The notes under the pieces are model-generated. The model saw nothing but the letters and a program-made list of their open reading frames with translations. It ran no database searches and was not told the origin of the DNA. Below, one piece after another: positions 29,501-56,500 of a stretch of 64,000 nucleotides of DNA. The translations under genes and the position numbers were made by a program. The stretch's first letter is position 1; the number at the start of each line of letters is the position of its first letter. The stretch spans positions 2,955,001-3,019,000 of the forward strand of contig NC_135549.1 of assembly GCF_964340395.1 (NCBI RefSeq), written 5' to 3'. The stretch comes from Glandiceps talaboti. Its lineage: Eukaryota; Hemichordata; Enteropneusta; Spengelidae.

Positions 29501-32500
29501 ATTTCCCATAGATGAGAGTGGGTGTGACCCCAATCCTTGTCAAAATGGTGGTGTATGTCAGATGTACAGCAATGGAAATTATCAGTGCTCATGTGAGAAT
29601 GGATACACTGGTCAGCATTGTGAAATTGGTATGTATCTTGAAAACAACCATTCTTATAGATTTTTGTAAAAGAGGAGTTTGTTGATATCCAGACATTTGA
29701 TAAAAGTTGGTACAAAAAGAAAAGTAATTGGTATTTTGTCTTCATTGGCTAATCTGGAGATGGTTCAGTATTCAAATATATATATTCCACAATATAAGTA
29801 TTTTTTTCATTAGTGAAAAGAATATCTTTCCATCAAGGAAACAACTTTGTAAATGTATATTTATTGAAAGGCATATGATGGATATATAGAAACATTATGC
29901 AGTTTGAAATAATGTGTATGTCTGCAAATATTTGCTAACTGCAGTGTTTTTGAGGATTTACATTTCATGGTTATATTTGATTTGTAGCACCAGAGCCATG
30001 TAGTAGTAGTCCCTGTAAGAATGGTGCCACATGTCATACTAACATCAGAGGACAGTTTATATGTGTGTGCTCATCAGGATGGAATGGACTCACTTGTGAA
30101 ACAAGTACGACTAAATACTATTAAACAATTCTCTGTTTTTTCCCATTAATGCTTGTACATGTATCGTGATTATATTTAGTGATTACCACCTGCATTATGT
30201 TAAGAAGTGTATAAAATGAGAAAGCCTGAATTCAGTCACCATAGTAGTTTGTAATAATCTCTGCTGTCAGCAATTATAGGTGACTGGAGTTTAAGGGTTA
30301 GATTAATTGATTCTCCATCATATATGGCCCATCGTACATCATCTGCAAAAATTTTTTTTGCTTTTATATTTGGTGTGCATGTCCTTGGGGTTGGGGCCAT
30401 TCAGGTTTGTTCATACATGTTAATATGTGTCATTTTCTATATTTAGCAGACATATTAGGTCAAAAAGGATACTTTGATTGCTACCAGTATATGTTGAAAA
30501 GGAGTATAAAATGATAGATTATGCATTCAATCAGCATAGTAGTATAATTGAAATTCAATTCTGCAGGAAATTGACATTGATAGAATTGAAATAGGATCCA
30601 GCTTTCTAAACAATTGTATATATACCAGTAAAGTCTGGTTTAAAACCAGTCATCAATTTGACCAACTACCAGTTAACTTATATCCCAAATGCTGAATCCT
30701 TGGTCTTTAGGCTTTGCTTGTATTCTAAAGTAGGTTGAATGAATGTTAATGTATGTTATGATCAGTTTTCTTCAGTTTATTTATTTGAAAGAGAGTTAGG
30801 AAAAACAGAAAATCCTTTCCAGTTTTCATAATTCACTGAATTATTTGTTAATTGAGCTGTATATTAAATGTAAACAATCTGTCAAAATAATATAATGTTT
30901 ACTCCAGTTCTAGGAAACTTTCAAATTCGAGTGCAGTGAATTGACATTCAATTTTCTTTTAACATTCTTTGCAGACGTTAATGAGTGTTCATCATCTCCA
31001 TGTCAAAACGATGGTACATGTATTGATAGGACAGATTCATTCACTTGTATCTGTCTGAATGGATGGGATGGTATACTGTGTCAGGAAGGTTTGTTACAAT
31101 ACACATTCAAGTGCTTTGAAATACCAGAAATGTACTGAATTGCGATAAAGAATTGGTTTTAATTTTGTGCTACATGATGACTACAAAGAAATGCTATTCC
31201 TTGTCATTTGATATATTTTACTGATTGCTCTTTTAGCTTTTATTATGGGATGACAGTTGCAACATTTTTCTTTTTCCACATGCATAAAAATGTTTAATTT
31301 GTGTAAAATTGTAATTTAAGGCTACACTTTTATGTGAAATTGATGTATAGGAAAGTGAATTTTCATTAAACACTTAAAAATAACCTCTATTACGTTTAGA
31401 AATCAAATGAAACTATTTGTTGAATGATTGTTATTTGTCTTATTCTGTTAGATGTGGATGATTGTAGTCCAAATCCATGTATGTATGGTGGAAGTTGTTA
31501 TGACAGAGGTATTAATGATCATGTGTGTCTATGTGACAATGGATTCAGTGGAGACAGTTGTGAAATAGGTAATATTACAATGCATTTATCATTCAAGTCA
31601 TAGATCTGTAAAAAATAAATTCCTGTCATACATATCAATATTCATATGTATCAAATTGAACCTACGCGTGTAATTACAGTCCTAATAGCCATCAGTTATC
31701 AAAAAAAAAGAGACGATGTCATACATTATCATACAAATCAAAGTATACTAATTTAAAGTACATTTCATTTTTCACTCGTACAATGTCAAATCAAGTGTAA
31801 AGTTCATATTTTTGGTTTTGCTTATTAACAGTGATAGATCTATGCGAGAGTGGTCCTTGTCAACATGGTACTTGTATTAGTGCTATCAATTCCTACACAT
31901 GTGCCTGTGATTCCGGATGGACTGGAAACAACTGTCAAATTAGTAAGTTATACTATCAATTCCTACACGTGTCTGTGATTCCAGATGGACAGGAAACAAC
32001 TGTCAAAATAGTAAGTTATACCTTCAATTCCTATACATGTGCCTCTGATTCCAGATGGACTGGAAACAACTGTCAAATTAGTAAGTTATACTATCAATTC
32101 CTACACGTATCTGTGATTCAATATGGACAGGAAAGTAATGTTATACCTTCAATTCCTACACATGTGTCTGTGATTCCAGATGGACTGGACACAATTGTCA
32201 AATTAGTAAGTTATACTTTCAATTCCTACGCTGTGATTCAGTATGGACAGGAAACAATTGTCAAATTAATAAGTTACCTTCAATTCCTACACGTATCTGT
32301 GATTCAGTATGGACAGGAAACAAATGTTATATCTTCAATCCTACACATGTGTTTGTGATTCCAGATGGACAGGAAACAACTGTCAAAATAGTAAGTTATA
32401 CCTTCAATCCTACACATGTGTTTGTGATTCAGGATGGACAGGAAACAACTGTCAAATTAATAAGTTATACCTTCAATTCCTACACGTGTCTGTGATTCAG

Positions 32501-35500
32501 GATGGACAGGAAACAACCGTCAAATTAATAAGTTATACCTTCAATTCCTACACATGTGTCTGTGATTCAGTATGGACAGGAAACAAATGTCAAATTAATA
32601 AGTTATACCTTCAATTCCTACACGTGTCTGTGATTCAGGATGGACAGGAAACAACTGTCAAATTAATAAGTTATACCTTCAATTCCTACACATGTGTTTG
32701 TGATTCAGGATGGACAGGAAACAACTGTCAAATTAATAAGTTATACCTTCAATCCTACACATGTGTTTGTGATTCAGGATGGACAGGAAACAACTGTCAA
32801 ATTAATAAGTTATACCTTCAATTCCTACACATGTGTCTGTGATTCAGTATGGACAGGAAACAAATGTCAAATTAATAAGTTATACCTTCAATTCCTACAC
32901 GTGTCTGTGATTCAGGATGGACAGGAAACAAATGTCAAATTAATAAGTTATACCTTCAATTCCTACACGTGTCTGTGATTCAGGATGGACAGGAAACAAC
33001 TGTCAAATTAATAAGTTATACCTTCAATCCTACACTGTGATTCAATATGGACAGGAAACAAATGTCAAATTAGTAAGTTATACCTTCAATTCCTACACGT
33101 GTCTGTGAGTCAGGATGGACAGGAAACAACTGTCAAATTAGTAAGTTATACCTTCAATCCTACACTGTGATTCAGGATGGATAGGAAACAACTGTCAAAA
33201 TACTACAAAGTTGTACCTTCAATTCCTACACTGTGATTCAGGATGGAAGGAAACAACTGTCAAAATAGTAAGTTATACCTTCAATCCTACACATGTGTTT
33301 GTGATTCCAGATGGACAGGAAACAACTGTCAAAATAGTAAGTTATACCTTCAATCCTACACGTATCTGTGATTCAGTATGGATAGGAAACAAATGTCGAT
33401 TTAGTAAGTTATACCTTCAATTCCTACACATGTGTTTGTGATTCCAGATGGACAGGAAACAACTGTCAAAATAGTAAGTTATACCTTCAATCCTACACAT
33501 GTGTTTGTGATTCCAGATGGACAGGAAACAACTGTCAAATTAGTAAGTTATACCTTCAATCCTACACTGTGATTCAGGATGGACAGGAAACAACTGTCAA
33601 AATAGTAAAAAGTTATACCTTCAATTCCTACACATATGTCTGTGATTCCAGATGGACTGACACAACTGTCAAATTAGTAAGTTATATTACCTTCAATTCC
33701 TACACTGTGATTCAGGATGGACAGGAAACAAATGTCAACTTAGTAAGTTATACCTTCAATCCTACGGTACACATGTGTCTGTGATTGAGGACGGACTGGA
33801 CAAAACTGTCAGATCAGTAAGTTATGCTGTATTATAACAATATTCTATTGTACAGTTTTTCATTCCCTCATTTCACCAACTTGATATCACATTTGAAGTG
33901 GAATCATTCTGCTAGAATTTAGGGTTCCAGAAAATATGCAATAAAAAAAAAATATGCAATAGACTTTCAGTCTAATGGAGAGCACAGAGAGGAGCTTTCA
34001 AGAGTTCTTTGATGTTACAGAAATAACAGTAATGTGAAGCGCCTTTTTTTCATTCCTTTAATACATCGTAGATATCGATGATTGTGGGAGGAATCTTTGT
34101 TTACATGGTGCAGTTTGTGAAGATGGCATTAATTCATTCACATGTCAATGTGAAGATGGATGGATTGGTACCTACTGTCAACATGGTGAGATACTTTCAG
34201 GATTTGGGGGGGGGGGGGGGGCACTGGCAAGTTGCCATACTGAACTAGATGATAATCTTGGCACTGGTTTTTGATTTTGACCAGAACTGATCCAATGGTT
34301 TGAACTGTGGCCTATTAGAAAGATATAAAAGAGAAATTGTGGTCAAAATACTAATTCAAAGAATTCCTGGCAGACTAGTACATATTTTATGGAGATTTTT
34401 GTAACATTGGTTGATGATTGTTTGTGAAGGGCAGAATATCTCATCCATGTTTCGAAATTAGGATTTTTTGTCAAAAGATATTTATCTCAAAATTTGAGGG
34501 GTGGGTTGGTCCATCATTTAGTGAAGAATATCTTACTTCTAGTATTGGTTACCTTCTAGGCAATCAGTCATGCCACAAGACTAATGGTACTATAAATATG
34601 TGTGTCTTCATATGTGTACTTACATTGTGTAGTCATACATCAATAATGCAGCATGAAACTAACTAATTTACATTGTCTGTTTTCCTAGACATCGATGATT
34701 GTAATCCTGACCCATGTATGAATGGTGGTACTTGCTATGATATGGGAGCAGCTTCATTCACATGTGTCTGCCCAACTGGTAAAACAGGAGCAATATGTCA
34801 GACAAGTAAGTTGACACTGTAATGGCAACCATTGTCATCCTCAGTGCCTTGCTGTCAAAGTTAAGTCACAAATTTTCTGTCTAGTACTAGTAGGTGTGAT
34901 TTCAGAACTGTTATGACATTATGCATAAGATCTTCAAGCCTATCTTAACCTGTACAGGTGAGACAATATCCCTTGCTCTTGCACCATTTAATTGGTGTTA
35001 ATGATTGTATGTCCGTGTACATTATACTTGTCATAGTATACTGTGTTATATCTTAAACTGAACATGATTCTTCGCCACCCAAGAGATTAAATCTTCCTCA
35101 TTCAAGATAAAATATGTACCTCCTCACTAGATCATCTTATAAAATTCTGTCACAGGTGTACATAAATTTACAACTGAATTTGTCACACAGGTTATTGTCT
35201 AACAATTGATATAGACTCTGATCTATGTTAGCCACATAGCCCAGCTTCTATTTATTCCTACCTGTATTGTGTATTTCATAGCTGAGAGAGATAGACTATG
35301 CATAGTTTACATTCTTAGGTAGGAACTGATGTTTTTGGTTGTAGACATATTTTATTGCAGTATATTGGCCAAAATGTGTGTATAAGATGCTAAATTGATG
35401 TTAATGAATGATTTAATTATCTTGTCTTGTCTTGTCAAGCTATCACATATTGCCAAAGTGCTCCATGTAAGAATGGTGCAACCTGTCTTAATGGTATGCT

Positions 35501-38500
35501 GTCCTATACTTGTGTGTGTCCACCTGGCTTCACTGGCCTCACTTGTCAGGAAGGTTTGTAATTACATATTTCATTTACTTCATCTTTTCTGTTCCATATT
35601 CTATGTACTGTCATCATAGATATTTTGTTATTTATGTTGTTCATACTTATTAACAGCTGGTATTTGTAACATTCTACACGTTAACATTACAGACAACTTT
35701 ATATTGCTCTGATGGGTGATTATTGCAGGATTAGGACTAACAATTGGGTACAAATAGGCGTCTGTGCATTTAATCAGAAGGATATATTAAATCATGCTTT
35801 TCATGAACAAAATTATAAATACAATGCAAATAATAGTTGATCTGATGTACACATACTTCTGATTAGTCATTGACAATTTTTTTTATAGATTGATTTAATT
35901 AATCATTCATCATTAATAAACCATAGAACAAAATATATGCTAAGGTGAAAAAAAAGAAAATTATTCTTTGATTGTACAGGTTGTTTAAAGTTTTTGAAAC
36001 AGAAGTCTTCAGTTATGAGCAGTTGTTTTTAGAGTGCATGCAGGTTTAACACCGAAAACTAAATCAAATTATAATTTATATTATTTGAATGATGTCTTTA
36101 TAGATCAGAATGATTGTACACCAAATACTTGTCTTCATGGTGGCATATGTTTAGATGGTGTTAATGATCATCAGTGTTTGTGTACTCAAGGATATACTGG
36201 CCAGTACTGTGAACTTAGTAAGTATATCAATCAACCTGTCACATATAAACTGTTTGAGAGATTTAGTTGAATGCAAATGTAACTTGTGTACATGTTTGTA
36301 CTATTATTCACACTATTCTTGTAATCTTACTACTGGATATGCTGAGGAGATCATAGCCTTGAAATTATGCAAGCAGTACACTGTGAGTGTACCTTGGAAT
36401 CAGTATCGTCTGTATTTATTGTGCCATTGTAATGATTTCAATTGTTTGGTAATACTGAATGTTTGGCTGATTTTTTATTGTCATTTACAGTCAAGATATG
36501 TGCCTGTCTATATTTTTACCAGAAATATTGAGTTACATTGTGTAATCCTGGTGTATGCCCAGTGTTACAGTAGGTATATCACCATGGTTACAAATAGAGA
36601 TCTCATATGAGGTAAACTTTATGTTGCAAAGCTTCATAGTCATCTTTATAGATCTAATTTCACAATATCTGTTATTATAGATCTTAATGAATGTGATCCA
36701 GATCCCTGTCTCCATGGTTACTGTGAGGATCTGTTGATTGGTTATGTCTGTCATTGTTCAGTAGAGTACACAGGTGCTAACTGTGAAACCAGTAAGTAGT
36801 AACATACATGTGCAAGGTGTTTGGACTCGAGAGTCTTGATGTCATCTCCAATGTATGTGCTCTATAGTATTGTTCCTGAGTATAAAAAATAACTAAAAAG
36901 CAAATAAAACTTCTGGTCTGTACTCCACCATGTACATTACTGTAGCTACATAGTTTTCCTGTCTCAAATGATTTATTTGCAAGAAGACCAGTATCTTCAA
37001 GAAACATTTCATAACTATACTTCTGAGTGCTGTAAAACATAGTTATGCTTTGCATTTATACAAGTATAGTAATAAGTACTTATTTATATGGTTTGTGCAG
37101 TAGAAATGATATCATACCAAAGTTTGTTATGTACATGTATGTCACCTTTATGTCGGTGAAATCCTGTAGATTTACATCCTGCCCACCTCATTTTTTAGGA
37201 CTTAATCCATGTGATAGTGCTCCTTGTCTCCATGGTGACTGCATCAATGGTATTATTTTCTATTCATGTGTCTGTGAAAATGGCTGGACAGGGACTAACT
37301 GTGAAGAGGGTAATAAACATTTTATTGCTGAGTTTCCTTTTTTTGTGTTCTTATATATCTTTACGAATAACTTGGAATTGTACCTTTAACAGTAATCTTG
37401 GAAAAGCCTACTTAGAGTTGAATCTAGATGGGTGGAAATGCAGTTCATTTTTGTATTCAGTTCCTATCCCTTGGTAGTACATTTGTACATGTATTCAGAG
37501 AATCACATTTCATTTTTAGCACTTCCACCTAACAACACTGGTAGGTATAAATCTGGTGTAAGCCATAGTGGAAATTAGTGTAAAAAGTGACCAGAAGAAG
37601 TTGAGTTTCTGAAGTTTATTTTAAATTCATAAAACTTCTAATCAGTATTTTTACTTAGCTCATACAGTAAAAAGCATCTTTATCAGGAAATGCCCAAAGA
37701 GCATTAATAGATATATTAAAACATGTCACTTTTATACTGTAATGTATTCTTATTCCAGATGCCAATGACTGTCATCCAAACCCTTGTCTAAATAGAGGTA
37801 CTTGCATTGATATTGGCACCAACCTGTATAATTGTCTGTGTTCTGAAGGATTTACTGGACAGAGATGCAATGAAGGTATGCAGCAACTTTGTTAGACTTA
37901 TGATTACATTATGTACATGTATAAAGTATGTTCAAGAGAGTTGTCCAACTTTTAGCAGGCTGTTTCTGTTAGAGCTGAGAGGGATATTTTCATGTCAGCT
38001 ATTTGGCCAGGACATGTCTAGAGGAATTGCTTACCAACACATTAACACGCTTCACATTAATTTTCCAATATTTTTCTTACAGTCATAGATAGCTGTGAGA
38101 GTTATCCTTGTTTGAATGGAGCAACCTGTGTTTCCGGTATAGCAATGTATTCTTGTATGTGTTCAACTGGATATGAGGGTTTTCACTGTGAAATAGGTAG
38201 GTATTTCCGATATAGCAATACATTCTTGTATGTGGTTCAACTTGATATGAAGGTTCTCACATATTAAAGGTGAGGTATTTCTAGTAAAGTGATGTATTCT
38301 AATATGTGTTCAACTGGATATGAAGGTTCTCACTGTGAAATAGGTAAGGTATTTCTGGCATAGTGATGTGTTCCTGTATGTGTTCAACTGGTTATGAAGG
38401 ATATGTTTAGCAAGGTAGGCATTCAAGCCAGACACTAAAATGTGACCTTGACCTTCATCTCCAAGGTCAAATAGCAAGTTGTTCTATAACTTTGGAAGTT

Positions 38501-41500
38501 TTATACCTAGAGCCATCATTGAAATGTGTACCTGCACATTGTAAGAGATAAGTTAAGGTCAAATTCAAATTTGGTCAATAACCTTGAAAGTTTTTTTGAT
38601 AGGGTCCCCAATCAAAATAGTCTACACTAATATCATAACGGCTGGGTAACCTCTCTGGTAAGATTGTATGACCATATTTCGGACATCGCAAGTCATGTTG
38701 TGTTGGGAGCTATGTTTTTAAATGTAGGAGACTTGTTGAGACATAAATGATATTGCCTGGAATATGTATGTCATGTGAATTCAATGTGTGTATATAGTTA
38801 AGCTGTCCATTATAAGCTCTACTCATTTATGTGTATGGAGATATAATCTCTCATAGTCCTACCTAATCTGTAATATGTAATCTGAAAGCACTTCTGGCCA
38901 TGGAATGTATATGTACCGGTATTAGTAAGCAAAAATATCTTTGAAATTCTCTATTTAGATAAAGATGATTGCCTTTCCAACCCTTGTCAGCACTTCATAC
39001 AATGTCATGTGAATTCAATGTGTGTATATAGTTAAGCTGTCCATTATAAGCTCTACTCATTTATGTGTATGGAGATATAATCTCTCATAGTCCTACCTAA
39101 TCTGTAATATGTAATCTGAAAGCACTTCTGGCCATGGAATGTATATGTACCGGTATTAGTAAGCAAAAATATCTTTGAAATTCTCTATTTAGATAAAGAT
39201 GATTGCCTTTCCAACCCTTGTCAGCACTTCATACAATGTAATGATTTGCCTAATGGCTACCATTGTGTCTGTCAACCTGGCTGGACTGGAACTAACTGTT
39301 TTACAGGTCAGTGAATAAAAGTATCAAATATGATATACTTACAAAATACTTGAAATTTAGCTAATTACAATTTTAGTGGTTCTACTGACTACCAAAAGGG
39401 CTTACTTAGACATTATACATTGTGCATTTGATGCTAGTGTTCTGTAAGAAACAAACAAAGCAAACATTATTAAGTAACAAGCAAATGAAATTTAAAAATT
39501 GATACATATTTAATTTAGTAATCTATGGTAAGCATACGTAGATTGTGGAGAGCACAGGCTTGTCAGATATTGATAAGGCATTGTTATGTATTTTCTTACA
39601 GATATTAATGAATGCTTGGAGTACAATCCATGTAAGCATGGTGGCACATGTATAAATGAAATCAACTCACATCGATGTCTGTGTCGGGAGCCGTATGTGG
39701 GCATGAATTGTGAAATAGGTAACTATAAACACTCTAGGGGAATTTAGCAGAATTCAAATCAAAAATTTATATTTTGACAGATTCTCCTCTATATAAACAT
39801 ATAAACAATGTGTCTGTTGGGGGAGGGGGCATGGCTGTTAGGATTGTACAATATGTTTGTGTTTTTCTGATACGCCATTAAACCATTTACTGTGATATCG
39901 TTTTAACTGTTTGTAATTGGTGGTTGTGTACCTTAGATGTATTATTTTAAAATGATTTAAATCTGGTCTATACATTATGGCTATTAAAGTTGTGTACATT
40001 TATAAAACTGGTGAAATTTTCTTAGTTGAAGCAAATTAAGAATATCATTGTTCTCCATGTACAAATCATGTGGACTAATATTTGATATTATCTTTACAGC
40101 AATCTTGACTACATGTACACCGTCACCATGTACTCATGGTGGAACCTGTGTTTCTCTAGCCACCAGTATACAGTGTATTTGTCAAGATGGATGGACAGGT
40201 CAAATGTGTCAGGAAAGTAAGTTCTTTAGGCTCAAATAAAAATTGTAGTCGCATAATTATATCCTTTATATACTTCTCAACATAATAGATACTTGAATTA
40301 TTGTGAGGTACTAGTAAGCAGTCAACAGCAAAGTGACAGTTTAAAAACATCTGTGTAACGTATTCTGTATTTATACATATATTCATAATCATGTTCCATT
40401 TAAGTACTGAGTCAGCCTTGTTTCATGACCATGGACAAATATTAATAACTTGTGATAATGATGTATCTCAGACCCAGAATCAGTTATACAAATGAGTTTA
40501 TATTATAATTGTGCCAGGAACACCTGATCCTTGTTCAACCAATCCTTGTCAACATGGAGGAACCTGTATTGGTAATACAGATGGTAGTTCCTTCTTCTGT
40601 CAGTGCAACAATGCCTGGGAGGGTACACATTGTGAAATCGGTGAGTTATTACATTCCACAAGATTTCATTCTTGTAGATTTTGTAAAATTTTAAATTAGT
40701 GTCAGAGTTCTTGAGAATTCTTGAGGATTTTAATGTATGTGGCTGATAAACATTTTCTAAATGCAATGTTATTTTCTTTCTTCAGTCTCTCCTGTTGTAC
40801 CCGATACCCCACCACCAACACATGGACCACCTGACATTGGACCATGTCAATCCTCACCATGTGCCAGTGATTCAACCTGTGTTAGCAGTACAGACAATAC
40901 AGCTTATTTCTGCGTGTGTCCAGTAGATAAACAAGGAAAACATTGTGAAGATGGTAGGTAGAACATCTGTTTAACTAGCAGTGCCTTGTGACATGAGAGC
41001 AACGTCTTGCAAATGAGACATCCAAACTGACAACTGTCAATATGTACATGTATACCACACAACCCTGCACACTACCTGCACATCATTTTGCTGCGTATGA
41101 TGCTATATGAATTGAAATGATTGATATGGTTGTGTGCATGCATATGACTTGAAGAGTGTTAATTTACAACCTTAACTTCAAATTTTTGTAATATTGGGAA
41201 AGAATTGTTTGTGTGATTCTGAACAAGCTTACTTTAGCATTCAAATTATGAACATTTATAAAAATAACAGTTAATAAGTTACGATTGTTTACTGTATACT
41301 GCAGATATAACACCAGACAATCCATGTGCTTCGTTACCATGCCAACATGGACCATGTGTACAAACCCAGGATGTGTATTTCTGTATCTGTGACATGGGAT
41401 GGGAAGGACAAAACTGTGAAACAAGTTAGTTTTATTCATCTAATAAACTCTTTACATTGTCAATAACAAATTTTCAGAAAACATTCTATGATATTAATTT

Positions 41501-44500
41501 TCCACACAGAAGATTGTGACTATTAACTAATTCAGTACAAAAAAACAGCTTAAATGTTCAACTAGTTTTGATCATTTTTAGGATTAACTCTTGTCTGTAA
41601 AGTTATGTTTACACTACCATCCATATGAAGTTCCATCAAACTGAGGCTTCATAAGTATGTTGTATTCTTGATAATTCATCCAACTCATCAATAATGATTT
41701 AATATGTGAGAGTTAATGTTCATGGACTCTGGGTTCATACTTACTAGTAATTTCTACTCACAGAGTAAAAAAATGATTTAATATGCTGCTTAAAGCCATA
41801 ATATTTTTAACTGATTGCTTCATGACTTGCATTTTATGACAAATGTAAATGTTTCAATGTTTAAAGATAAAATTTTCCATATATGTACAGTTTATATAGC
41901 ATTTAAGCTTAGCATTTGTAATATGTACTTTAAAAGACATCAAGAATCATTGTGACTTTGTTAATAGGGATACCAGAAGAACCTAGTCCATGTGAGTCGT
42001 CACCATGTAAACATGGCGGTACATGTGTTAGTAGTGGCGCTGCATCTGGATATCAGTGTCTGTGTGTAGATGGCTCTACAGGAAGCAACTGCGAAACATG
42101 TATGTTACAAATATATTACAGTCCACAAGAATAACAAAATAACAACATGTGCAGTCCTACATTCATTTAGGCAATTAGGGAGATTTGGTCAGTTTAAAAA
42201 CCACACAGAACTATGTACCAGTGTCTTGTGTAATACAGCTTCATATACCACTAGTATCTTGTACCATATAAGACATTTTTTTAATGTTGAAAGTTGTGAT
42301 GTTTTCAACAGCAATGTTCAGTTCAAATACCAAAGTAGTTAAATCACACATGTATGGTTAAGATTTTTTTTTACTATTGCTTGTACACATAACCTTACAT
42401 TCAATATACTACAAGTAGGTAAAACTATACTTTCGTAAAGTACAATGTGTATTAGCTGATATTGTGGATTATATAATATGTAATGAGGTAATAGTTCATA
42501 TAACAGCACCCACCCTCAACCTTCATGTCATCTTGAGTCATCCATGCTCATCCAGGCATGTATGATATCATGTCACAGTATTACACAATATGTAATACCT
42601 GATAATGACCCATTTGGCATTAAGTTGATAACAACAATTTAGAATATTAATGAAATTAATAACACATTTTAAATTTATAGTAACTGATCCAACTGAGTGG
42701 CCATGTTCATCTTCACCATGTCTAAACCATGGCACCTGTGATGGTGATAGTGCCATCTACACATGTCTCTGTCCACAGGGATATCAGGGAACACATTGTG
42801 AAGAAAGTAAAACAAGTTGTATGATATACTATTTACTTGTATAGAAGGAGGCTGTTTGACTAAAGCAGTATTATAATATCTATCATTTCAGCTTCAAGAG
42901 TTTTAGTTAGTGTCCAATCAATGCCACATCATTTCTTTGAGCAATGTTACCCCCCCAACCCCTCCCTGAGCCATTGATTATCTAACACTATAGTATAATT
43001 TCTTTGAGCCATGTGAAACCTCCACCACCCTCTTAATTAACTTATACTGCATATATGCATTATAAACATTATTTAGTAAGTTTCTAATGCAGAAAGTCAC
43101 ATTGGTCATTGGTGAAAATGTCTTTGGGAAAGTGCCTTTGCCTTTCATGTAGAAAGTTACCATGATTGTGGATCTGTACCAAAGTATCATGTCAATTTTC
43201 AAAATTTGTTCTAGATTAAAATGACAAACAAGTGTCGTAACTAGTATATTGTAAGGAGTTTTGTCACATGGTAAACTCAAAAGTGTGCACAACTCCACTA
43301 TTTGTTGTGGTTAAAGAAAACTATATACATGGTCGATCCTGGTATAATGTATAATGTCCCATCATACATTGTAATTCTTCAGAAACTAAGAGGAATTCTG
43401 ATATTTTCCTTTTCAGTTGTACCAGATGACCCCTGTTCATCCTTTCCATGTGAGAATGGCGGTACCTGTATGTCCTCTGATACCAGCTTTGGTTTCAGCT
43501 GTGAATGTTCAGATGGATGGACAGGACAAATTTGTGAAACAAGTAAGAACCCTATAAAGGGGAAATAGAGACATTTTAATAAACTATGGAGTCTGGAGAG
43601 TCATTTCTATATTACTTGTCCTCTACAGCTGTGACTGTTATCAATCCATGTCTAAGTACTGATTCTATTGTCCTCTACAGCTGTGACTGTTATCAATCCA
43701 TGTCTAAGTACAGATTCTATATTACTTGTCCCCTACAGCTGTGACTGTTATCAATCCATGTCTAAGTACAGATTCTATATTACTTGTCCTCTACAGCTGT
43801 GACTGTTATCAACCCATGTCTAAGTACTGATTCTATATTGTCCTCTACAGCTGTGACTGTTATCAACCCATGTCTAAGTACTGATTCTATATTGTCCTCT
43901 ACAGTTGTGACTGTTATCAACCCATGTCTAAGTACTGATTCTATATTACTTGTCCTCTACAGCTGTGACTGTTATCAATCCATGTCTAAGTACAGATTCT
44001 ATATTACTTGTCCCCTACAGCTGTGACTGTTATCAACCCATGTCTAAATACTGATTCTATATTACTTGTCCTCTACAGCTGTGACTGTTATCAATCCATG
44101 TCTAAGTACAGATTCTATATTAATTGTCCCCTACAGCTGTGACTGTTATCAACCCATGTCTAAGTACAGATTCTATATTAATTGTCCCCTACAGCTGTGA
44201 CTGTTATCAACCCATGTCTAAGTACTGATTCTATATTACTTGTCCCCTACAGCTGTGACTGTTATCAATCCATGTCTAAGTACAGATTCTATATTACTTG
44301 TCCTCTACAGCTGTGACTGTTATCAATCCACGTCTAAGTACAGATTCTATATTACTTGTCCCCTACAGCTGTGACTGTTATCAACCCACGTCTAAGTACT
44401 GATTCTATATTACTTGTCCTCTACAGCTGTGACTGTTATCAACCCATGTCTAAATACTGATTCTATATTACTTGTCCTCTACAGCTGTGACTGTTATCAA

Positions 44501-47500
44501 TCCATGTCTAAGTACAGATTCTATATTAATTGTCCCCTACAGCTGTGACTGTTACCAACCCATGTCTAAGTACAGATTCTATATTAATTGTCCCCTACAG
44601 CTGTGACTGTTATCAACCCATGTCTAAGTACTGATTCTATATTACTTGTCCCCTACAGCTGTGACTGTTATCAACCCATGTCTAAGTACTGATTCTATAT
44701 TACTTGTCCCCTACAGCTGTGACTGTTATCAACCCATGTCTAAGTACTGATTCTATATTACTTGTCCTCTACAGCTGTGACTGTTATCAACCCATGTCTA
44801 AGTACTGATTCTATATTACTTGTCCCCTACAGCTGTGACTGTTATCAATCCATGTCTAAGTACAGATTCTATATTACTTGTCCTCTACAGCTGTGACTGT
44901 TATTAACCCATGTCTAAGTACTGATTCTATATTGTCCCCTACAGCTGTGACTGTTATCAACCCATGTCTAAGTACTGATTCTATATTGTCCTCTACAGCT
45001 GTGACTGTTATCAACCCATGTCTAAGTACTGATTCTATATTGTCCCCTACAGCTGTGACTGTTATCAACCCATGTCTAAGTACTGATTCTATATTACTTG
45101 TCCTCTACAGCTGTGACTGTTATCAATCCATGTCTAAGTACTGATTCTATATTACTTGTCCCCTACAGCTGTGACTGTTATCAATCCATGTCTAAGTACA
45201 GATTCTATATTACTTGTCCTCTACAGCTGTGACTGTTATCAATCCATGTCTAAGTACAGATTCTATATTACTTGTCCTCTACAGCTGTGACTGTTATCAA
45301 CCCATGTCTAAGTACTGATTCTATATTACTTGTCCTCTACAGCTGTGACTGTTATCAATCCATGTCTAAGTACTGATTCTATATTACTTGTCCCCTACAG
45401 CTGTGACTGTTATCAACCCATGTCTAAGTACTGATTCTATATTACTTGTCCCCTACAGCTGTGACTGTTATCAACCCATGTCTAAGTACTGATTCTATAT
45501 TACTTGTCCTCTACAGCTGTGACTGTTATCAACCCATGTCTAAGTACTGATTCTATATTACTTGTCCCCTACAGCTGTGACTGTTATCAATCCATGTCTA
45601 AGTACAGATTCTATATTACTTGTCCTCTACAGCTGTGACTGTTATTAACCCATGTCTAAGTACTGATTCTATATTGTCCCCTACAGCTGTGACTGTTATC
45701 AACCCATGTCTAAGTACTGATTCTATATTGTCCTCTACAGCTGTGACTGTTATCAACCCATGTCTAAGTACTGATTCTATATTGTCCCCTACAGCTGTGA
45801 CTGTTATCAACCCATGTCTAAGTACTGATTCTATATTACTTGTCCTCTACAGCTGTGACTGTTATCAATCCATGTCTAAGTACTGATTCTATATTACTTG
45901 TCCTCTACAGCTGTGACTGTTATCAATCCATGTCTAAGTACTGATTCTATATTACTTGTCCTCTACAGCTGTGACTGTTATCAACCCATGTCTAAGTGCT
46001 GAGTCTATATTGTCCTCTACAGCTGTGACTGTTATCAACCCATGTCTAAGTACTGATTCTATATTACTTGTCCTCTACAGCTGTGACTGTTATCAACCCA
46101 TGTCTAAGTACTGATTCTATATTACTTGTCCCCTACAGCTGTGACTGTTATCAACCCATGTCTAAGTACTGATTCTATATTGTCCCCTACAGCTGTGACT
46201 GTTATCAACCCATGTCTAAGTACTGATTCTATATTGTCCCCTACAGCTGTGACTGTTATCAACCCATGTCTAAGTACTGATTCTATATTGTCCCCTACAG
46301 CTGTGACTGTTATCAACCCATGTCTAAGTACTGATTCTATATTACTTGTCCTCTACAGCTGTGACTGTTATCAACCCATGTCTAAGTACTGATTCTATAT
46401 TGTCCCCTACAGCTGTGACTGTTATCAACCCATGTCTAAGTACTGATTCTATATTACTTGTCCTCTACAGCTGTGACTGTTATCAATCCATGTCTAAGTA
46501 CTGATTCTATATTACTTGTCCCCTACAGCTGTGACTGTTATCAATCCATGTCTAAGTACAGATTCTATATTACTTGTCCTCTACAGCTGTGACTGTTATC
46601 AATGCATGTCTAAGTACAGATTCTATATTACTTGTCCTCTACAGCTGTGACTGTTATCAACCCATGTCTAAGTACTGATTCTATATTACTTGTCCTCTAC
46701 AGCTGTGACTGTTATCAATCCATGTCTAAGTACTGATTCTATATTACTTGTCCCCTACAGCTGTGACTGTTATCAACCCATGTCTAAGTACTGATTCTAT
46801 ATTACTTGTCCCCTACAGCTGTGACTGTTATCAACCCATGTCTAAGTACTGATTCTATATTACTTGTCCTCTACAGCTGTGACTGTTATCAACCCATGTC
46901 TAAGTACTGATTCTATATTACTTGTCCCCTACAGCTGTGACTGTTATCAATCCATGTCTAAGTACAGATTCTATATTACTTGTCCTCTACAGCTGTGACT
47001 GTTATTATCCCATGTCTAAGTACTGATTCTATATTGTCCCCTACAGCTGTGACTGTTATCAACCCATGTCTAAGTACTGATTCTATATTGTCCCCTACAG
47101 CTGTGACTGTTATCAACCCATGTCTAAGTACTGATTCTATATTACTTGTCCTCTACAGCTGTGACTGTTATCAACCCATGTCTAAGTACTGATTCTATAT
47201 TACTTGTCCCCTACAGCTGTGACTGTTATCAATCCATGTCTAAGTACAGATTCTATATTACTTGTCCTCTACAGCTGTGACTGTTATTATCCCATGTCTA
47301 AGTACTGATTCTATATTGTCCCCTACAGCTGTGACTGTTATCAACCCATGTCTAAGTACTGATTCTATATTGTCCCCTACAGCTGTGACTGTTATCAACC
47401 CATGTCTAAGTACTGATTCTATATTACTTGTCCTCTACAGCTGTGACTGTTATCAATCCACGTCTAAGTACAGATTCTATATTACTTGTCCCCTACAGCT

Positions 47501-50500
47501 GTGACTGTTATCAACCCACGTCTAAGTACTGATTCTATATTACTTGTCCTCTACAGCTGTGACTGTTATCAACCCATGTCTAAATACTGATTCTATATTA
47601 CTTGTCCTCTACAGCTGTGACTGTTATCAATCCATGTCTAAGTACAGATTCTATATTACTTGTCCTCTACAGCTGTGACTGTTATCAATCCATGTCTAAG
47701 TACAGATTCTATATTAATTGTCCCCTACAGCTGTGACTGTTATCAACCCATGTCTAAGTACTGATTCTATATTACTTGTCCCCTACAGCTGTGACTGTTA
47801 TCAATCCATGTCTAAGTACAGATTCTATATTACTTGTCCTCTACAGCTGTGACTGTTATCAACCCATGTCTAAGTACTGATTCTATATTACTTGTCCTCT
47901 ACAGCTGTGACTGTTATCAATCCATGTCTAAGTACTGATTCTATATTACTTGTCCCCTACAGCTGTGACTGTTATCAACCCATGTCTAAGTACTGATTCT
48001 ATATTACTTGTCCCCTACAGCTGTGACTGTTATCAACCCATGTCTAAGTACTGATTCTATATTACTTGTCCTCTACAGCTGTGACTGTTATCAACCCATG
48101 TCTAAGTACTGATTCTATATTACTTGTCCCCTACAGCTGTGACTGTTATCAATCCATGTCTAAGTACAGATTCTATATTACTTGTCCTCTACAGCTGTGA
48201 CTGTTATTAACCCATGTCTAAGTACTGATTCTATATTGTCCCCTACAGCTGTGACTGTTATCAACCCATGTCTAAGTACTGATTCTATATTGTCCTCTAC
48301 AGCTGTGACTGTTATCAACCCATGTCTAAGTACTGATTCTATATTGTCCCCTACAGCTGTGACTGTTATCAACCCATGTCTAAGTACTGATTCTATATTA
48401 CTTGTCCTCTACAGCTGTGACTGTTATCAATCCATGTCTAAGTACTGATTCTATATTACTTGTCCTCTACAGCTGTGACTGTTATCAATCCATGTCTAAG
48501 TACTGATTCTATATTACTTGTCCTCTACAGCTGTGACTGTTATCAACCCATGTCTAAGTGCTGAGTCTATATTGTCCTCTACAGCTGTGACTGTTATCAA
48601 CCCATGTCTAAGTACTGATTCTATATTACTTGTCCTCTACAGCTGTGACTGTTATCAACCCATGTCTAAGTACTGATTCTATATTACTTGTCCCCTACAG
48701 CTGTGACTGTTATCAACCCATGTCTAAGTACTGATTCTATATTGTCCCCTACAGCTGTGACTGTTATCAACCCATGTCTAAGTACTGATTCTATATTGTC
48801 CCCTACAGCTGTGACTGTTATCAACCCATGTCTAAGTACTGATTCTATATTGTCCCCTACAGCTGTGACTGTTATCAACCCATGTCTAAGTACTGATTCT
48901 ATATTACTTGTCCTCTACAGCTGTGACTGTTATCAACCCATGTCTAAGTACTGATTCTATATTGTCCCCTACAGCTGTGACTGTTATCAACCCATGTCTA
49001 AGTACTGATTCTATATTACTTGTCCTCTACAGCTGTGACTGTTATCAATCCATGTCTAAGTACTGATTCTATATTACTTGTCCCCTACAGCTGTGACTGT
49101 TATCAATCCATGTCTAAGTACAGATTCTATATTACTTGTCCTCTACAGCTGTGACTGTTATCAATGCATGTCTAAGTACAGATTCTATATTACTTGTCCT
49201 CTACAGCTGTGACTGTTATCAACCCATGTCTAAGTACTGATTCTATATTACTTGTCCTCTACAGCTGTGACTGTTATCAATCCATGTCTAAGTACTGATT
49301 CTATATTACTTGTCCCCTACAGCTGTGACTGTTATCAACCCATGTCTAAGTACTGATTCTATATTACTTGTCCCCTACAGCTGTGACTGTTATCAACCCA
49401 TGTCTAAGTACTGATTCTATATTACTTGTCCTCTACAGCTGTGACTGTTATCAACCCATGTCTAAGTACTGATTCTATATTACTTGTCCCCTACAGCTGT
49501 GACTGTTATCAATCCATGTCTAAGTACAGATTCTATATTACTTGTCCTCTACAGCTGTGACTGTTATTATCCCATGTCTAAGTACTGATTCTATATTGTC
49601 CCCTACAGCTGTGACTGTTATCAACCCATGTCTAAGTACTGATTCTATATTGTCCTCTACAGCTGTGACTGTTATCAACCCATGTCTAAGTACTGATTCT
49701 ATATTGTCCCCTACAGCTGTGACTGTTATCAACCCATGTCTAAGTACTGATTCTATATTACTTGTCCTCTACAGCTGTGACTGTTATCAATCCATGTCTA
49801 AGTACTGATTCTATATTACTTGTCCTCTACAGCTGTGACTGTTATCAATCCATGTCTAAGTACTGATTCTATATTACTTGTCCTCTACAGGTGTGACTGT
49901 TATCAACCCATGTCTAAGTGCTGAGTCTATATTGTCCTCTACAGCTGTGACTGTTATCAACCCATGTCTAAGTACTGATTCTATATTACTTGTCCTCTAC
50001 AGCTGTGACTGTTATCAACCCATGTCTAAGTACTGATTCTATATTACTTGTCCCCTACAGCTGTGACTGTTATCAACCCATGTCTAAGTACTGATTCTAT
50101 ATTGTCCCCTACAGCTGTGACTGTTATCAACCCATGTCTAAGTACTGATTCTATATTGTCCCCTACAGCTGTGACTGTTATCAACCCATGTCTAAGTACT
50201 GATTCTATATTACTTGTCCTCTACAGCTGTGACTGTTATCAATCCATGTCTAAGTACTGATTCTATATTACTTGTCCCCTACAGCTGTGACTGTTATTAA
50301 CCCATGTCTAAATACTGATTCTATATTACTTGTCCTCTACAGCTGTGACTGTTATCAACCCATGTCTAAGTACTGATTCTATATTACTTGTCCCCTACAG
50401 CTGTGACTGTTATTAACCCATGTCTAAGTACAGATTCTATATTACTTGTCCCCTACAGCTGTGACTGTTATCAACCCATGTTTAAGTACTGATTCTATAT

Positions 50501-53500
50501 TGTCCCCTACAGCTGTGACTGTTATCAATCCATGTCTAAGTACTGATTCTATATTGTCCTCTACAGCTGTGACTGTTATCAATCCATGTCTAAGTACTGA
50601 TTCTATATTGTCCTCTACAGCTGTGACTGTTATCAATCCATGTCTAAGTACTGATTCTATATTGTCCTCTACAGCTGTGACTGTTATCAACCCATGTCTA
50701 AGTACTGATTCTATATTGTCCTCTACAGCTGTGACTGTTATCAACCCATGTCTAAGTACTGATTCTATATTACTTGTCCTCTACAGCTGTGACTGTTATC
50801 AATCCATGTCTAAGTACTGATTCTATATTACTTGTCCTCTACAGCTGTGACTGTTATCAACCCATGTCTAAGTACAGATTCTATATTACTTGTCCCCTAC
50901 AGCTGTGACTGTTATCAATCCATGTCTAAGTACTGATTCTATATTGTCCTCTACAGCTGTGACTGTTATCAACCCATGTCTAAGTACTGATTCTATATTA
51001 CTTGTCCCCTACAGCTGTGACTGTTATTAACCCATGTCTAAGTACAGATTCTATATTACTTGTCCCCTACAGCTGTGACTGTTATCAACCCATGTTTAAG
51101 TACTGATTCTATATTGTCCCCTACAGCTGTGACTGTTATCAATCCATGTCTAAGTACTGATTCTATATTGTCCTCTACAGCTGTGACTGTTATCAATCCA
51201 TGTCTAAGTACTGATTCTATATTGTCCTCTACAGCTGTGACTGTTATCAATCCATGTCTAAGTACTGATTCTATATTGTCCTCTACAGCTGTGACTGTTA
51301 TCAACCCATGTCTAAGTACTGATTCTATATTGTCCTCTACAGCTGTGACTGTTATCAACCCATGTCTAAGTACTGATTCTATATTACTTGTCCTCTACAG
51401 CTGTGACTGTTATCAATCCATGTCTAAGTACTGATTCTATATTACTTGTCCTCTACAGCTGTGACTGTTATCAACCCATGTCTAAGTACAGATTCTATAT
51501 TACTTGTCCCCTACAGCTGTGACTGTTATCAATCCATGTCTAAGTACTGATTCTATATTGTCCTCTACAGCTGTGACTGTTATCAACCCATGTCTAAGTA
51601 CTGATTCTATATTACTTGTCCTCTACAGCTGTGACTGTTATCAACCCATGTCTAAGTACTGATTCTATATTGTCCTCTACAGCTGTGACTGTTATCAACC
51701 CATGTCTAAGTACTGATTCTATATTACTTGTCCCCTACAGCTGTGACTGTTATCAATCCATGTCTAAGTACAGATTCTATATTACTTGTCCTCTACAGCT
51801 GTGACTGTTATCAACCCATGTCTAAGTACTGATTCTATATTGTCCCCTACAGTTGTGACTGTTATCAACCCATGTCTAAGTACTGATTCTATATTGTCCT
51901 CTACAGCTGTGACTGTTATCAACCCATGTCTAAGTACTGATTCTATATTACTTGTCCCCTACAGCTGTGACTGTTATCAACCCATGTCTAAGTACTGATT
52001 CTATATTACTTGTCCCCTACAGCTGTGACTGTTATTAACCCATGTCTAAGTAATCCCTGTAAAAACGGTGGAATATGTATATACCAACAGACAGAAAGTA
52101 CTTACATCTGTCAATGTATTGACAACTTGCAAGGAACTCATTGTGATGTGGGTAAGTAGTTAAGTCTTACACCTGGAAAGAAAATATTTGCTAGTCAGTG
52201 CTTGATGCAAAAATAAAAGAGTCATATCAGTCACTTGAAAATACGTACAGGCTCATTTAAATGTAGTTGTTAGTTGAAATGTTTGGCTTTCTTCAAATTT
52301 TCAACCACACATTTGAGATCATTTTAATATTCTATTCTATTCTATTCTATTTTATACTATTCTATTCTATTATATATGTTCTATTCTTTTCAAAGTCTAT
52401 TCTGTTCTAATCCATTTTATTGCTTTATTTTATGCTTTAATAGACTAATATATTCTATTCTATTCCATTCTATTGTGTTCTATTCTATTCAAAATCTATT
52501 CTATTCTAATACATTTTATTTGCTTCTATTCAATGCTAATTCTATTCTATTCTATTCCTAGACTGTTCTATGAATAATCTGTTTTCCATTATATAATTAC
52601 AACAGCTCCATCTGAAGACTGCAACAAGGAGTTCAACTTGGGCACAGGTGAAGTAGCTAGAGTGACATCTCCTAATTATCCCAACAACTACCCAGACAAT
52701 GCACACTGTACATGGATCGTGCGTACTCAAGAAGGCCATACATTGAAAGTGATAGTTAATGACATGAATACAGACTGCAGTGTTGATATGGTCAAACTAG
52801 GATTTGGTGATGATCCCAATAACCCTAATTCATTGGAAATGAGTGAATCTGGTTCTGACTTGATTCATCCTTTTGTAGTGGATGATAATGAACTTTGGAT
52901 GACCTTTGATTCTGACCCAAGTACTAGCAAGAAGGGATTTTCAATTGACATCCAAGACTTACCAAAAGGTGAGTGTGTCATAGTAACAAATGATAAGTAT
53001 AGAAGGACCTTCCAAATCGTTAACATTTTGTCATAACTACAAGTGATATCAGGACATGTTTGGGATAAGTCAAGGTAACCAAATGATAAGTATATTGTGT
53101 CATGTAACAAGTGTTAATAACTGATGTATGACATAATTTAAGACTCACCAAATGATAGGTATATGTTGTCATGGTAACAAGTGTTGATATAAGGGATATT
53201 TGAGATAGGTTGAAACTTTACCAAATGATAGATATGTTTTCATGGTAACGAGCATGACAACTGATGCATGAGATAAGTTGAAACTTACCAAGTGATAAGC
53301 ATATGTTGTCACGGTAACAAGTGTTGATAACTAGTGTATGAGATAAATTGAGTTCCTATGCCATTGGAGCGCCCCCAGTGACTGATAGTTGTACACTAGC
53401 ACCTACACCATTGGAGCACCCCGAATGACTGACTAGTCTACACAGCACCTACACTATTTGAGTGCCGTATTGTTTGTTTTGTCTTTATAACCTATCACAT

Positions 53501-56500
53501 GTACTAAATATCTAGTCATCTTCTTTCCCACTCATTACAATAACAGAAACTTGTGGTCAATACGTATGTTATAATGGTGGAGGTTGTGTTATGACTGGAG
53601 GCCAAAAAAAGTGTGTCTGCACTGATGGATGGACTGGAGAGTTCTGTGAGGATGGTAAGTATATATAGAAATGTTACAGTCAAAATAGTTGATAAATTCC
53701 ATATGCTATGGATAGCCACAACAAAATGACTTGAAAATATACATTTGGGAAATTGGTTGTGTTCACTACTTTAAAATAATTTGTCAACACTGTACTTCTA
53801 AAAGTTCATCTCTGGCTCCATCAATAGAAAGCAGACACTGTTAACAGATGTATGCAAGTCATTATGTCCAAGACTAACATAAAGATCATAACATTAAATG
53901 TGTTCTGTAGAAGCATTTGATTTATAGTTTAACTGATTCAGCTCTTGGTTCTGTGCAGCTATTTGTAGTCAATACAGATGCAAGGATCCCAGCATAATGC
54001 ACTTTACACTTCTGAATTGGAATACAGTTCACCTTTTGATTCCACTCACTTAGGCAAAGTATACACCAGGTACATTATATCCTTTGGAAAGCATAATTTT
54101 ATAATATTCTGGGTGGTTTCACCGACTTATCATGGTTTTCTTCCTTGTAGATATTGATGAATGTGAGAATTCACCTTGTGAAAATGGCGGTGATTGTGTT
54201 AATGGTAACAATGAATTCCAATGTACATGTAGTCCAGAGTGGTCCGGAGAAACATGTGCTGAACCTGCATCAGGTAATTTGGATATCATACGATGATTCC
54301 CATTTGTCCCAAAAGTAATAGTTGACCAATCACAGCTAAAGATGTCAGATATTCACAAATCACAAATAGTGTTACAATGATGAAGGTGATAGGGATACTA
54401 GTAATCTTTAAAAGGTATAGGCTAACTTTGCCAAAATAAACGGTTGTGCATAGTCCCACTTCGTGTCATTAATAAAAGGTTGGGGGCAAATATACAAAGC
54501 TGTTATACATCACACATACATATATCATAGAGTATGACCAGGGGAAATATTCACTACATAAAATGTAAAACAATTGAAGTTGTCACTTTGCAGCATTCAT
54601 ATTTGAACATGAATTTCATTTTTTTCAATTCTTTTGAAAATTCTCCCCATTTCACCTAGCAGGTGTTGATGTAATCTATTCACTCATGTACATTGGGAAT
54701 TTTCAGTTTTTCCATGGACATTTGAACAGATTTGGGTAAAAATTCTGTCCTCTTCCATGTATGTGCAAGCAATGACAGTTGATAACCCAGAAGATTTGCA
54801 TATAAACTCAAGTCAAAATATCTGCTAAACAGTATCAAAGATATATTTGATGGTATATGGCCTGACATGTTGTATTATACAGGAAAACAAGGAGATGACC
54901 CATCCCCAGCTGAAGATTCCTCACTGGAATGGTATTGGATTATGATGGTCACTGCTCTTAGTGGTTTAGTGGCTGGGGTTGGTGGCTACTTGGCATATAA
55001 ACAGTATCAGGCAAGGTAAGTGTTATTATAGGTTTGTATTTATATGCTAGTGGATATGTTGGTGGGAAGAAGGTTAGCGAGCAATATTTGGTTATGTGGT
55101 TGTCAAATGGCTGTGTTTGTTTGTTTGTGCGTGCGTGCGTGCGTGTGTGTGCGTGTTTGTGTATATTTGTGTGGGGCGGACAGGGTGATAATATAATATT
55201 TGGCACACTAACTTTGTCAGGCAAGACAAATGTTGATATTTGGGTTGGAGGGGGTCATACAGACAGCAACAAGCAAGATTATTATCTGGCATTTTAGTCT
55301 TATAGTGATCACTCTTTGCAGTAGGTATATACATGTATGAGGCATGGGCATGGTTATCATTATTTAAAAAATAAACATCCATGTGCCAACAGATGTGTTT
55401 ACTTTGAAATTGTTGTTTTTATATGTAGTAGCTAGGTTCATAGAGTTATTTGAAGTAAAACCTGTGACAATAAAATAGTGTTGTACGAGTCAAACTTTAC
55501 CCAAAACTGACTTGGTATGAACAAAATGAAAAAATAGTACAAAGCAGATACTTTATTTACATGTTATTTACATTTATAAACATTGAATGAAGTTGAATGT
55601 GCAGACACTTGAGGAAAACTTGCTATCTAAGATGCCACCCTACTGTGGGTGTAATTACATCAACATTCATTGAAAGCTTAATCAACATGTTACAACAACA
55701 GTCTTAATATGTGTCTTGGTCTTTGCTTATAGCTTGTTTTCTGTAGTAGTACTGCTTGTAATAAAAGCCACTTTCCATAGTAGTATTTTTTTTTCACATA
55801 ATTAATTTCACTTCCCTTCAAGCATTGTGTTTGTCTTTATTCTAATTTCAGAAAGCAAGCAAAGAAATCAAACATACGAAACACTGATTTACTTCAGTCT
55901 TTGAAAGTAAATAATGGTGAATTACCACCTGTAGACAGATATGGTTTTACATCACCTGAAGAAATGGGGTAAGTAATATTTATCTGTGAATTAACATCTC
56001 TTGTATTGTTTTGAACCTCTAGCTGATACTCACTATTTACTAATCCTTGTAGTAACTTTCTGTGATGTAGTAGACTGTACTAAGAGTATGGACATAGTCA
56101 TAAAAAACAAATCAATTTTTTGAAAGATTTAAAAAGTAGTTATTTGAAAAGTATTAATTAAACGCAATATATGGTATTATGAATATAATAAAGAAAATTA
56201 CGCCCAGATCAATTGTTCTTGATGACTTTTAATGTGAAATATCAATTCTGATATGGGATGTTAAACGTCATGATATTCATGTTAAACATCTTGTGTCACG
56301 TTACGGAAACTGCACTCACAGCGATATGATGAATGAATAGGTGATATCAGGTTATAACCTCTTATTAGCTCTGTTGATATAGATATATCCTAAAGCGTGA
56401 GTAAAGTACACTGTAGTATTACACTGTATATACATGAACTTCTGAAAGAAAATTGAACCCTTCACTCTCCTTGTGATATCATTTTCCTGTGAGAGAAAAA

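Follow-up and report, generated by a model that had tools for sequence, protein, structure and literature searches.

A very large array of copied 3' splice sites before an EGF exon of Glandiceps talaboti: probably a mostly passive mirage-type minisatellite

Introduction

Minisatellites that span an exon–intron boundary are known from amphioxus genes, where they are called mirages; the excerpts of two reports on which we draw place them in Adh3, in globin genes (BflGb6 and BflGb9), in troponin C and in PGBD5 (PMC3087553; PMC3902484, which also cites the troponin C case). Here we describe a boundary array of this anatomy in the hemichordate Glandiceps talaboti (Enteropneusta, Spengelidae). The window, i.e., the whole stretch of DNA that was analysed, comprises 64,000 nt of the forward strand of contig NC_135549.1 (positions 2,955,001 to 3,019,000; assembly GCF_964340395.1) and holds most of a gene built of EGF-like exons, one intron of which carries 148 extra copies of the acceptor of the exon that follows it. 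All coordinates below count from the first letter of the window.

The amphioxus mirages, as far as the excerpts describe them, are short. In BflGb6 two haplotypes carry clusters of 6 and 3 units, each unit being 150-160 bp long; the Adh3 mirages are cited as having units of 10-72 bp at both 5' and 3' boundaries (PMC3087553). Those of PGBD5 comprise 2 or 7 copies of 60 bp and 3 or 6 copies of 108 bp in two assemblies (PMC3902484). Many of the published copies, not all, carry splice signals, and length polymorphism, somatic as well, is reported for Adh3. The BflGb6 units evolve in concert, with the cluster edges escaping homogenisation, and the Adh3 data, together with reverse-transcription PCR of the globin genes, suggest that mirages leave regular splicing undisturbed (PMC3087553).

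Results

Anatomy of the acceptor array

The first-pass annotation of this DNA had reported an 8.4-kb array just before the EGF exon that it copies, and the repeat call agreed: from 43605 to 52052 the sequence repeats with a period of 58, 148.9 copies and 94% matches. The array begins after the first 62 bp of the intron and accounts for all the rest of it. A 22-base acceptor core, searched with at most 3 mismatches, gave 149 matches in the window, all of them on the + strand between 43623 and 52038, against a mean of 0.00 matches in 100 shuffles. Each unit spans the exon–intron boundary and combines 30 bp from the exon start with 28 or 24 bp of the intron end. Three unit lengths occur (58 bp, n = 101; 54 bp, n = 46; 52 bp, n = 1), as do 27 distinct unit sequences, with a mean pairwise identity of 0.968 over 147 of the 148 units (the 52-bp unit left out, gap columns ignored).

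Both splice-site motifs had been ascribed to every unit. CTACAG indeed ends all 148 decoys, whereas the branch-point-like TACTGAT is present in only 115 of the 148 units; another 30 have TACAGAT and 3 have GTGCTGAGT, leaving 33 without TACTGAT. The further claim of well over a hundred near-identical acceptors stands for local strength (see below), but it is narrowed by these 33 units and by the fact that only four decoys give exons of the size seen in the gene model. No TACTGAT lies upstream of the first acceptor. The motif straddles the point at which the exon portion of a unit meets the intron portion of its successor; the copy before the true acceptor therefore seems to be a product of the duplication itself. 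The true copy carries TTATTAA, which it shares with 6 of the 148 units. At its left edge the array joins the unit at TTCTATATT, and at its right edge it departs after AAGTA within the true exon; the first unit is the odd one (52 bp), and the last two decoys are of a common type. A 22-base piece of the unit had no exact match in viral or prokaryote contigs, a result that is uninformative about animals, and Rfam gave no match at gathering score.

The first-pass annotation had pointed to the mirages of amphioxus Adh, and the same anatomy is indeed what the excerpts describe for amphioxus genes (PMC3087553, PMC3902484). The likeness extends from the boundary-spanning repeat to the splice signals borne by the copies (here the CTACAG and TACTGAT counts given above) and to concerted change, seen here in the mean unit identity and in identical block copies. 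The difference is one of size, with 149 copies and 8.4 kb in the present array compared with 6 and 3 copies in BflGb6 and 2 to 7 in PGBD5—about twenty-fold over the largest number reported for these two genes (149 vs 7), Adh3 and troponin C standing outside the comparison. Unlike the amphioxus cases in the excerpts, moreover, the present gene has boundary repeats at five of its junctions. A further comparison is offered by human segmental duplications, where intragenic minisatellite expansion makes both exons and introns longer and may bring cryptic splice sites into use, with internal tandem repeats of up to 39 copies in the morpheus genes (PMC2812944). These share with our array the expansion of a minisatellite inside genes, but the excerpt of that report does not describe them as boundary copies adjoining the copied exon. 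Our literature searches found no boundary array this large; their coverage of subscription journals was thin, and the result is no proof that none has been published.

Reading frame, splice-site strength and spacing

For every acceptor we followed the frame that results when the upstream exon (43417-43542, phase 1) is spliced directly to it. Each of the 148 decoys runs into an in-frame stop no later than the end of exon 52023-52151, and the only acceptor that stays open is the one whose first exon base is 52023. The first-pass view that the terminal acceptor alone is productive therefore holds for this kind of splicing, as does its statement that the last decoy (51965) runs into a stop in the true exon, which lies 71 nt past the junction; for 67 of the 148 decoys the stop comes at 89 nt. 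The 54-bp units are frame-neutral, a 58-bp unit shifts the frame, and it is units of 58 bp that close the array. In one shifted frame TGA stands at the start of all 148 units, and in the other it is found in the 115 units with TACTGA. Given these unit lengths and the recurrent TGA, the universal decoy stops need no special design. The fates previously listed for the decoys (all skipped, used and lost to nonsense decay, or passed over by a rule such as last-acceptor preference) keep their frame argument for direct splicing; the list omitted skipping of exon 52023-52151, after which the frame remains open.

Site strength was scored with acceptor and donor matrices built from the same 80-exon model (a hand-edited mechanical scan) and hence not an independent predictor; the acceptor matrix covers 20 bases before to 3 after the junction, with the branch point outside it. 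The true acceptor scores 5.0, at about the 21st percentile of the 79 other model acceptors. Since every one of the 148 decoys scores as high or higher (111 higher, 37 equal, and 18 above the median of the 79), the local acceptor signal fails to single out the true site. What does set it apart is a real donor 129 nt downstream. Only the last four decoys would yield exons (187, 245, 299 and 353 nt) of a size found among the 79 non-terminal model exons (108-375 nt); the 79 introns have a median of 454. At the other end of the array, the first decoy lies 86 nt from the donor.

Within the intron there are 745 GT sites, one of which (49891) reaches the weakest of the 79 model donors (2.4). Next best are the TAA/GTACTG sites of the units, at 1.5. 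Use of the units as 27-nt microexons through that donor is unlikely at such a score. Masking of the decoys by RNA structure was likewise rejected: folding of the segment 51849-52070, which carries the last four acceptors, does not surpass that of its shuffles (z 0.64), 143 of 200 of which fold as well. Nor did we see a sign of selection on the decoys. Variable columns number 14 of 58, so that six given columns would be invariant by chance with a probability of about 0.17, and no difference in variability was seen between exon and intron columns (10/30 vs 4/28, p 0.13).

Growth and length of the array

The array expanded blockwise. A run of 32 units that recurs exactly at a lag of 45 units underlies the 1,873-bp identity listed in Table 1, and older, diverged block copies lie at lags of 24 and 69 units; when unit order was shuffled (n = 300), the longest repeat was 5 units. 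Block growth of such arrays is usually put down to unequal exchange or conversion. We regard the 8.4-kb length as provisional, because the identical 1,873-bp pair might be an assembly fault.

Other boundary duplications in the gene

Four further junctions of the same gene bear smaller boundary duplications, again on the intron side (Table 1); at each duplicated junction we assumed the site joined to the full exon to be the functional one. The array at 31886-33825 contains 26 copies within 5 edits of its core, the true one included (copies beyond 5 edits fall outside this count): 15 keep GTAAGT, 10 have GT changed to AT and 1, at 33598, reads GTAAAA through an insertion. Nine of the ten changed copies stand in one run of neighbours, and the change seems to have spread blockwise. 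Among the donor decoys, 32081 keeps the frame, which stays open into the exon that follows, and 32011 shifts the frame and meets a stop in the second exon after. At the last exon, use of the upstream acceptor (56867) would swap the final 30 residues for 8 others before a stop, giving a shorter protein tail.

We also asked how often a copy lies within 450 bp, at an edit distance of at most 9, of 160 exon edges and of 160 random intron points; one of the edges is the 3' end of the last exon, which is not a donor, and the exon borders are those before a correction of six. Copies were found at 9/160 edges, 4 of them belonging to the whole-exon pair at 5837-6342, which leaves five junctions including the main array. 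The control gave 11/160, 4 of these inside the arrays at 38131-38400 and 38768-39243, and is itself weak, with one random seed, several hits in the same arrays and the two largest arrays left out. The comparison thus does not show boundaries to be favoured, and the repeats resemble ordinary tandem duplications that chanced to cover a junction.

The gene and its exons

The gene model, obtained by mechanical scan and hand correction, has 80 exons on the + strand from 572 to 57026 and covers most of one gene whose 5' end lies beyond the window edge. The array exon, numbered 75 in the first pass, is number 74 of 80 in this list, which may lack one exon. The joined frame encodes 3,303 residues, with its sole stop at the end. 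Nearly all exons are single EGF-like modules in phase 1-1; after them come a CUB exon, two further EGF-like exons, a putative membrane span (called by eye) and a short tail. A Pfam search with 10 exons assigned nine to EGF and one to CUB, the nine including exon 53547-53654, the match of which is just below the curated cut-off. Among solved structures the CUB exon is closest to cubilin (E 1e-25), which speaks for the domain only; against a protein collection it returned 1 candidate and no homologue at E <= 0.001. The G+C content of the window is 0.34.

Several other repeats were observed along the gene. A series of EGF exon types, close variants included, recurs about five times across 4088-15747, and a whole-exon duplicate pair lies at 5837-6342; as judged from the sequence, the gene grew by multi-exon tandem duplication as well. 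Exon 2998-3372 has an in-frame, Thr-rich coding minisatellite before its EGF module, and the intron after the array exon contains a degenerate TATTC pentamer repeat (52328-52558).

Table 1. Coordinates of the acceptor array, the exons around it and the other boundary duplications of the gene (window positions)
Feature	Position	Strand	Remarks
Intron, 8,480 bp, nearly all array	43543..52022	+	longest of 79 in the gene model
Tandem array, 148 decoy acceptors and the true one	43605..52052	+	58/54/52-bp units
Upstream EGF exon, phase 1 in and out	43417..43542	+	donor GTAAGA at 43543; open frame, EGF match
True EGF exon, 129 nt, phase 1-1	52023..52151	+	contributes its first 30 bp to the repeat unit
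1,873-bp block	45221..47093	+	identical to 47783-49655
Second copy of the 1,873-bp block	47783..49655	+
678-bp stretch	50330..51007	+	identical to 50944-51621; tandem 11-unit block, ends of the pair overlap
Unit with first exon base G, CTACAG then GTGTGA	49885..49896	+	acceptor abutting donor-like site, first base 49891
Donor-side boundary array	31886..33825	+	end of exon 31832-31942 and GTAAGTTAT
Donor-side array at exon 38083-38196	38131..38400	+	about 3.7 diverged 74-bp copies
234-bp tandem pair	38768..39243	+	extra acceptor with first exon base 38959, ahead of the true one at 39193; using 38959 leads to a stop
Last exon, two acceptors 66 bp apart	56867..56933	+	first exon bases 56867 and 56933
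CUB-domain exon, downstream	52606..52968	+	Pfam PF00431, E 5e-19

Discussion

The array is in our view a real, unusually large member of a known repeat class and most likely passive; it is probably a very large mirage-type minisatellite, for the most part without effect on the transcript and tolerated through exon definition. A segment spanning the intron end and the start of the EGF exon would have been duplicated in tandem, and the copies would then have multiplied in blocks to 148 extras lying in the intron ahead of the true exon, the blocks spreading perhaps via unequal exchange or conversion. With its short exons and longer introns, the gene would favour exon definition, to judge from these lengths and from general splicing knowledge. 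An acceptor might then be used if a real donor follows about 110-375 nt downstream, which would fit the terminal acceptor and about four decoys. Because a real donor is near only these, we propose that most of the array is invisible to splicing. Use of a near decoy would lead to a premature stop and presumably to decay, and exon skipping would preserve the frame, so that the cost may be small.

Several points weigh against this interpretation. The idea that exon definition hides most decoys is drawn from lengths and general splicing knowledge. The first decoy, so close to the donor, is transcribed long before the true site, and co-transcriptional splicing could choose it. Locally, the true acceptor is weaker than 111 decoys. 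Lastly, splice junctions as repeat hot spots are unsupported by the comparison of edges with control points.

Three of the alternatives concern splicing. If the decoys were used substantially and nonsense-mediated decay followed, copy number would determine how much the gene yields or what share of transcripts skips the exon; the stop after every decoy, the local strength of all 148 relative to the true site and the short distance from the donor to the first decoy would all suit such a poison field. We consider it quite unlikely, given that the absence of productive decoys largely follows from unit length (the last units being frame-shifting 58-bp ones), that an invariant CTACAG is unsurprising at the chance given above, with exon and intron columns varying alike, and that GT has been lost in 10 of the 26 counted copies of the donor array, which argues that copied sites are not generally kept. 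An extension of this idea takes the field of about 150 acceptors, variable in copy number, for a dial, its length setting how much transcript is lost to decay or to skipping of an EGF module. This we regard as very unlikely; a regulatory reading draws no support of its own from the sequence. The third alternative starts from the unit at 49891, which has the shape of a recursive splice site and could act as a ratchet dividing the long intron. Its donor-like site scores 8.2 or 8.4 in two scorings, above the true-donor median of 7.8, and is the sole GT in the intron interior to reach the model-donor minimum. Against such stepwise splicing, it is 1 unit of 148, a chance base change would easily produce it, and exons running from the 110 upstream acceptors to the 49891 donor and joined to the true exon are open in 0 of 110 cases (a test of the exon version only, since a genuine ratchet would leave no exon of this sort); we hold it to be extremely improbable.

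The remaining alternative concerns the assembly, in which a real but shorter array might have been lengthened, e.g., by the joining of haplotype paths. The 1,873-bp pair is identical throughout, as such inflation would have it, and the draft genome contained an aberrant assembly of one amphioxus mirage, according to the excerpt of PMC3087553. Still, several units differ between the block copies at lags of 24 and 69 units, as they would after a true history, and even with one 45-unit period removed about 103 decoys remain; we think inflation unlikely.

Work on how the spliceosome picks one of several like sites usually relies on a few engineered copies. Reed and Maniatis reportedly made, in 1986, laboratory constructs with tandemly duplicated splice sites, which pose the same choice among like neighbours; the duplicates there were engineered, and here about 150 occur naturally. 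One intron with 149 acceptors of similar local strength is a good natural test of how one site is picked among many, and the 27 unit types and the 58- and 54-bp lengths are small tags that would help long cDNA reads to tell groups of acceptors apart. The donor array of the same gene is the mirror case, some of its copies having AT where GT stood. Were the array a dial after all, germline or somatic changes in its length would tune a giant EGF-repeat protein. As a probably passive mirage, it shows how large a boundary minisatellite can become within a gene of open frame.

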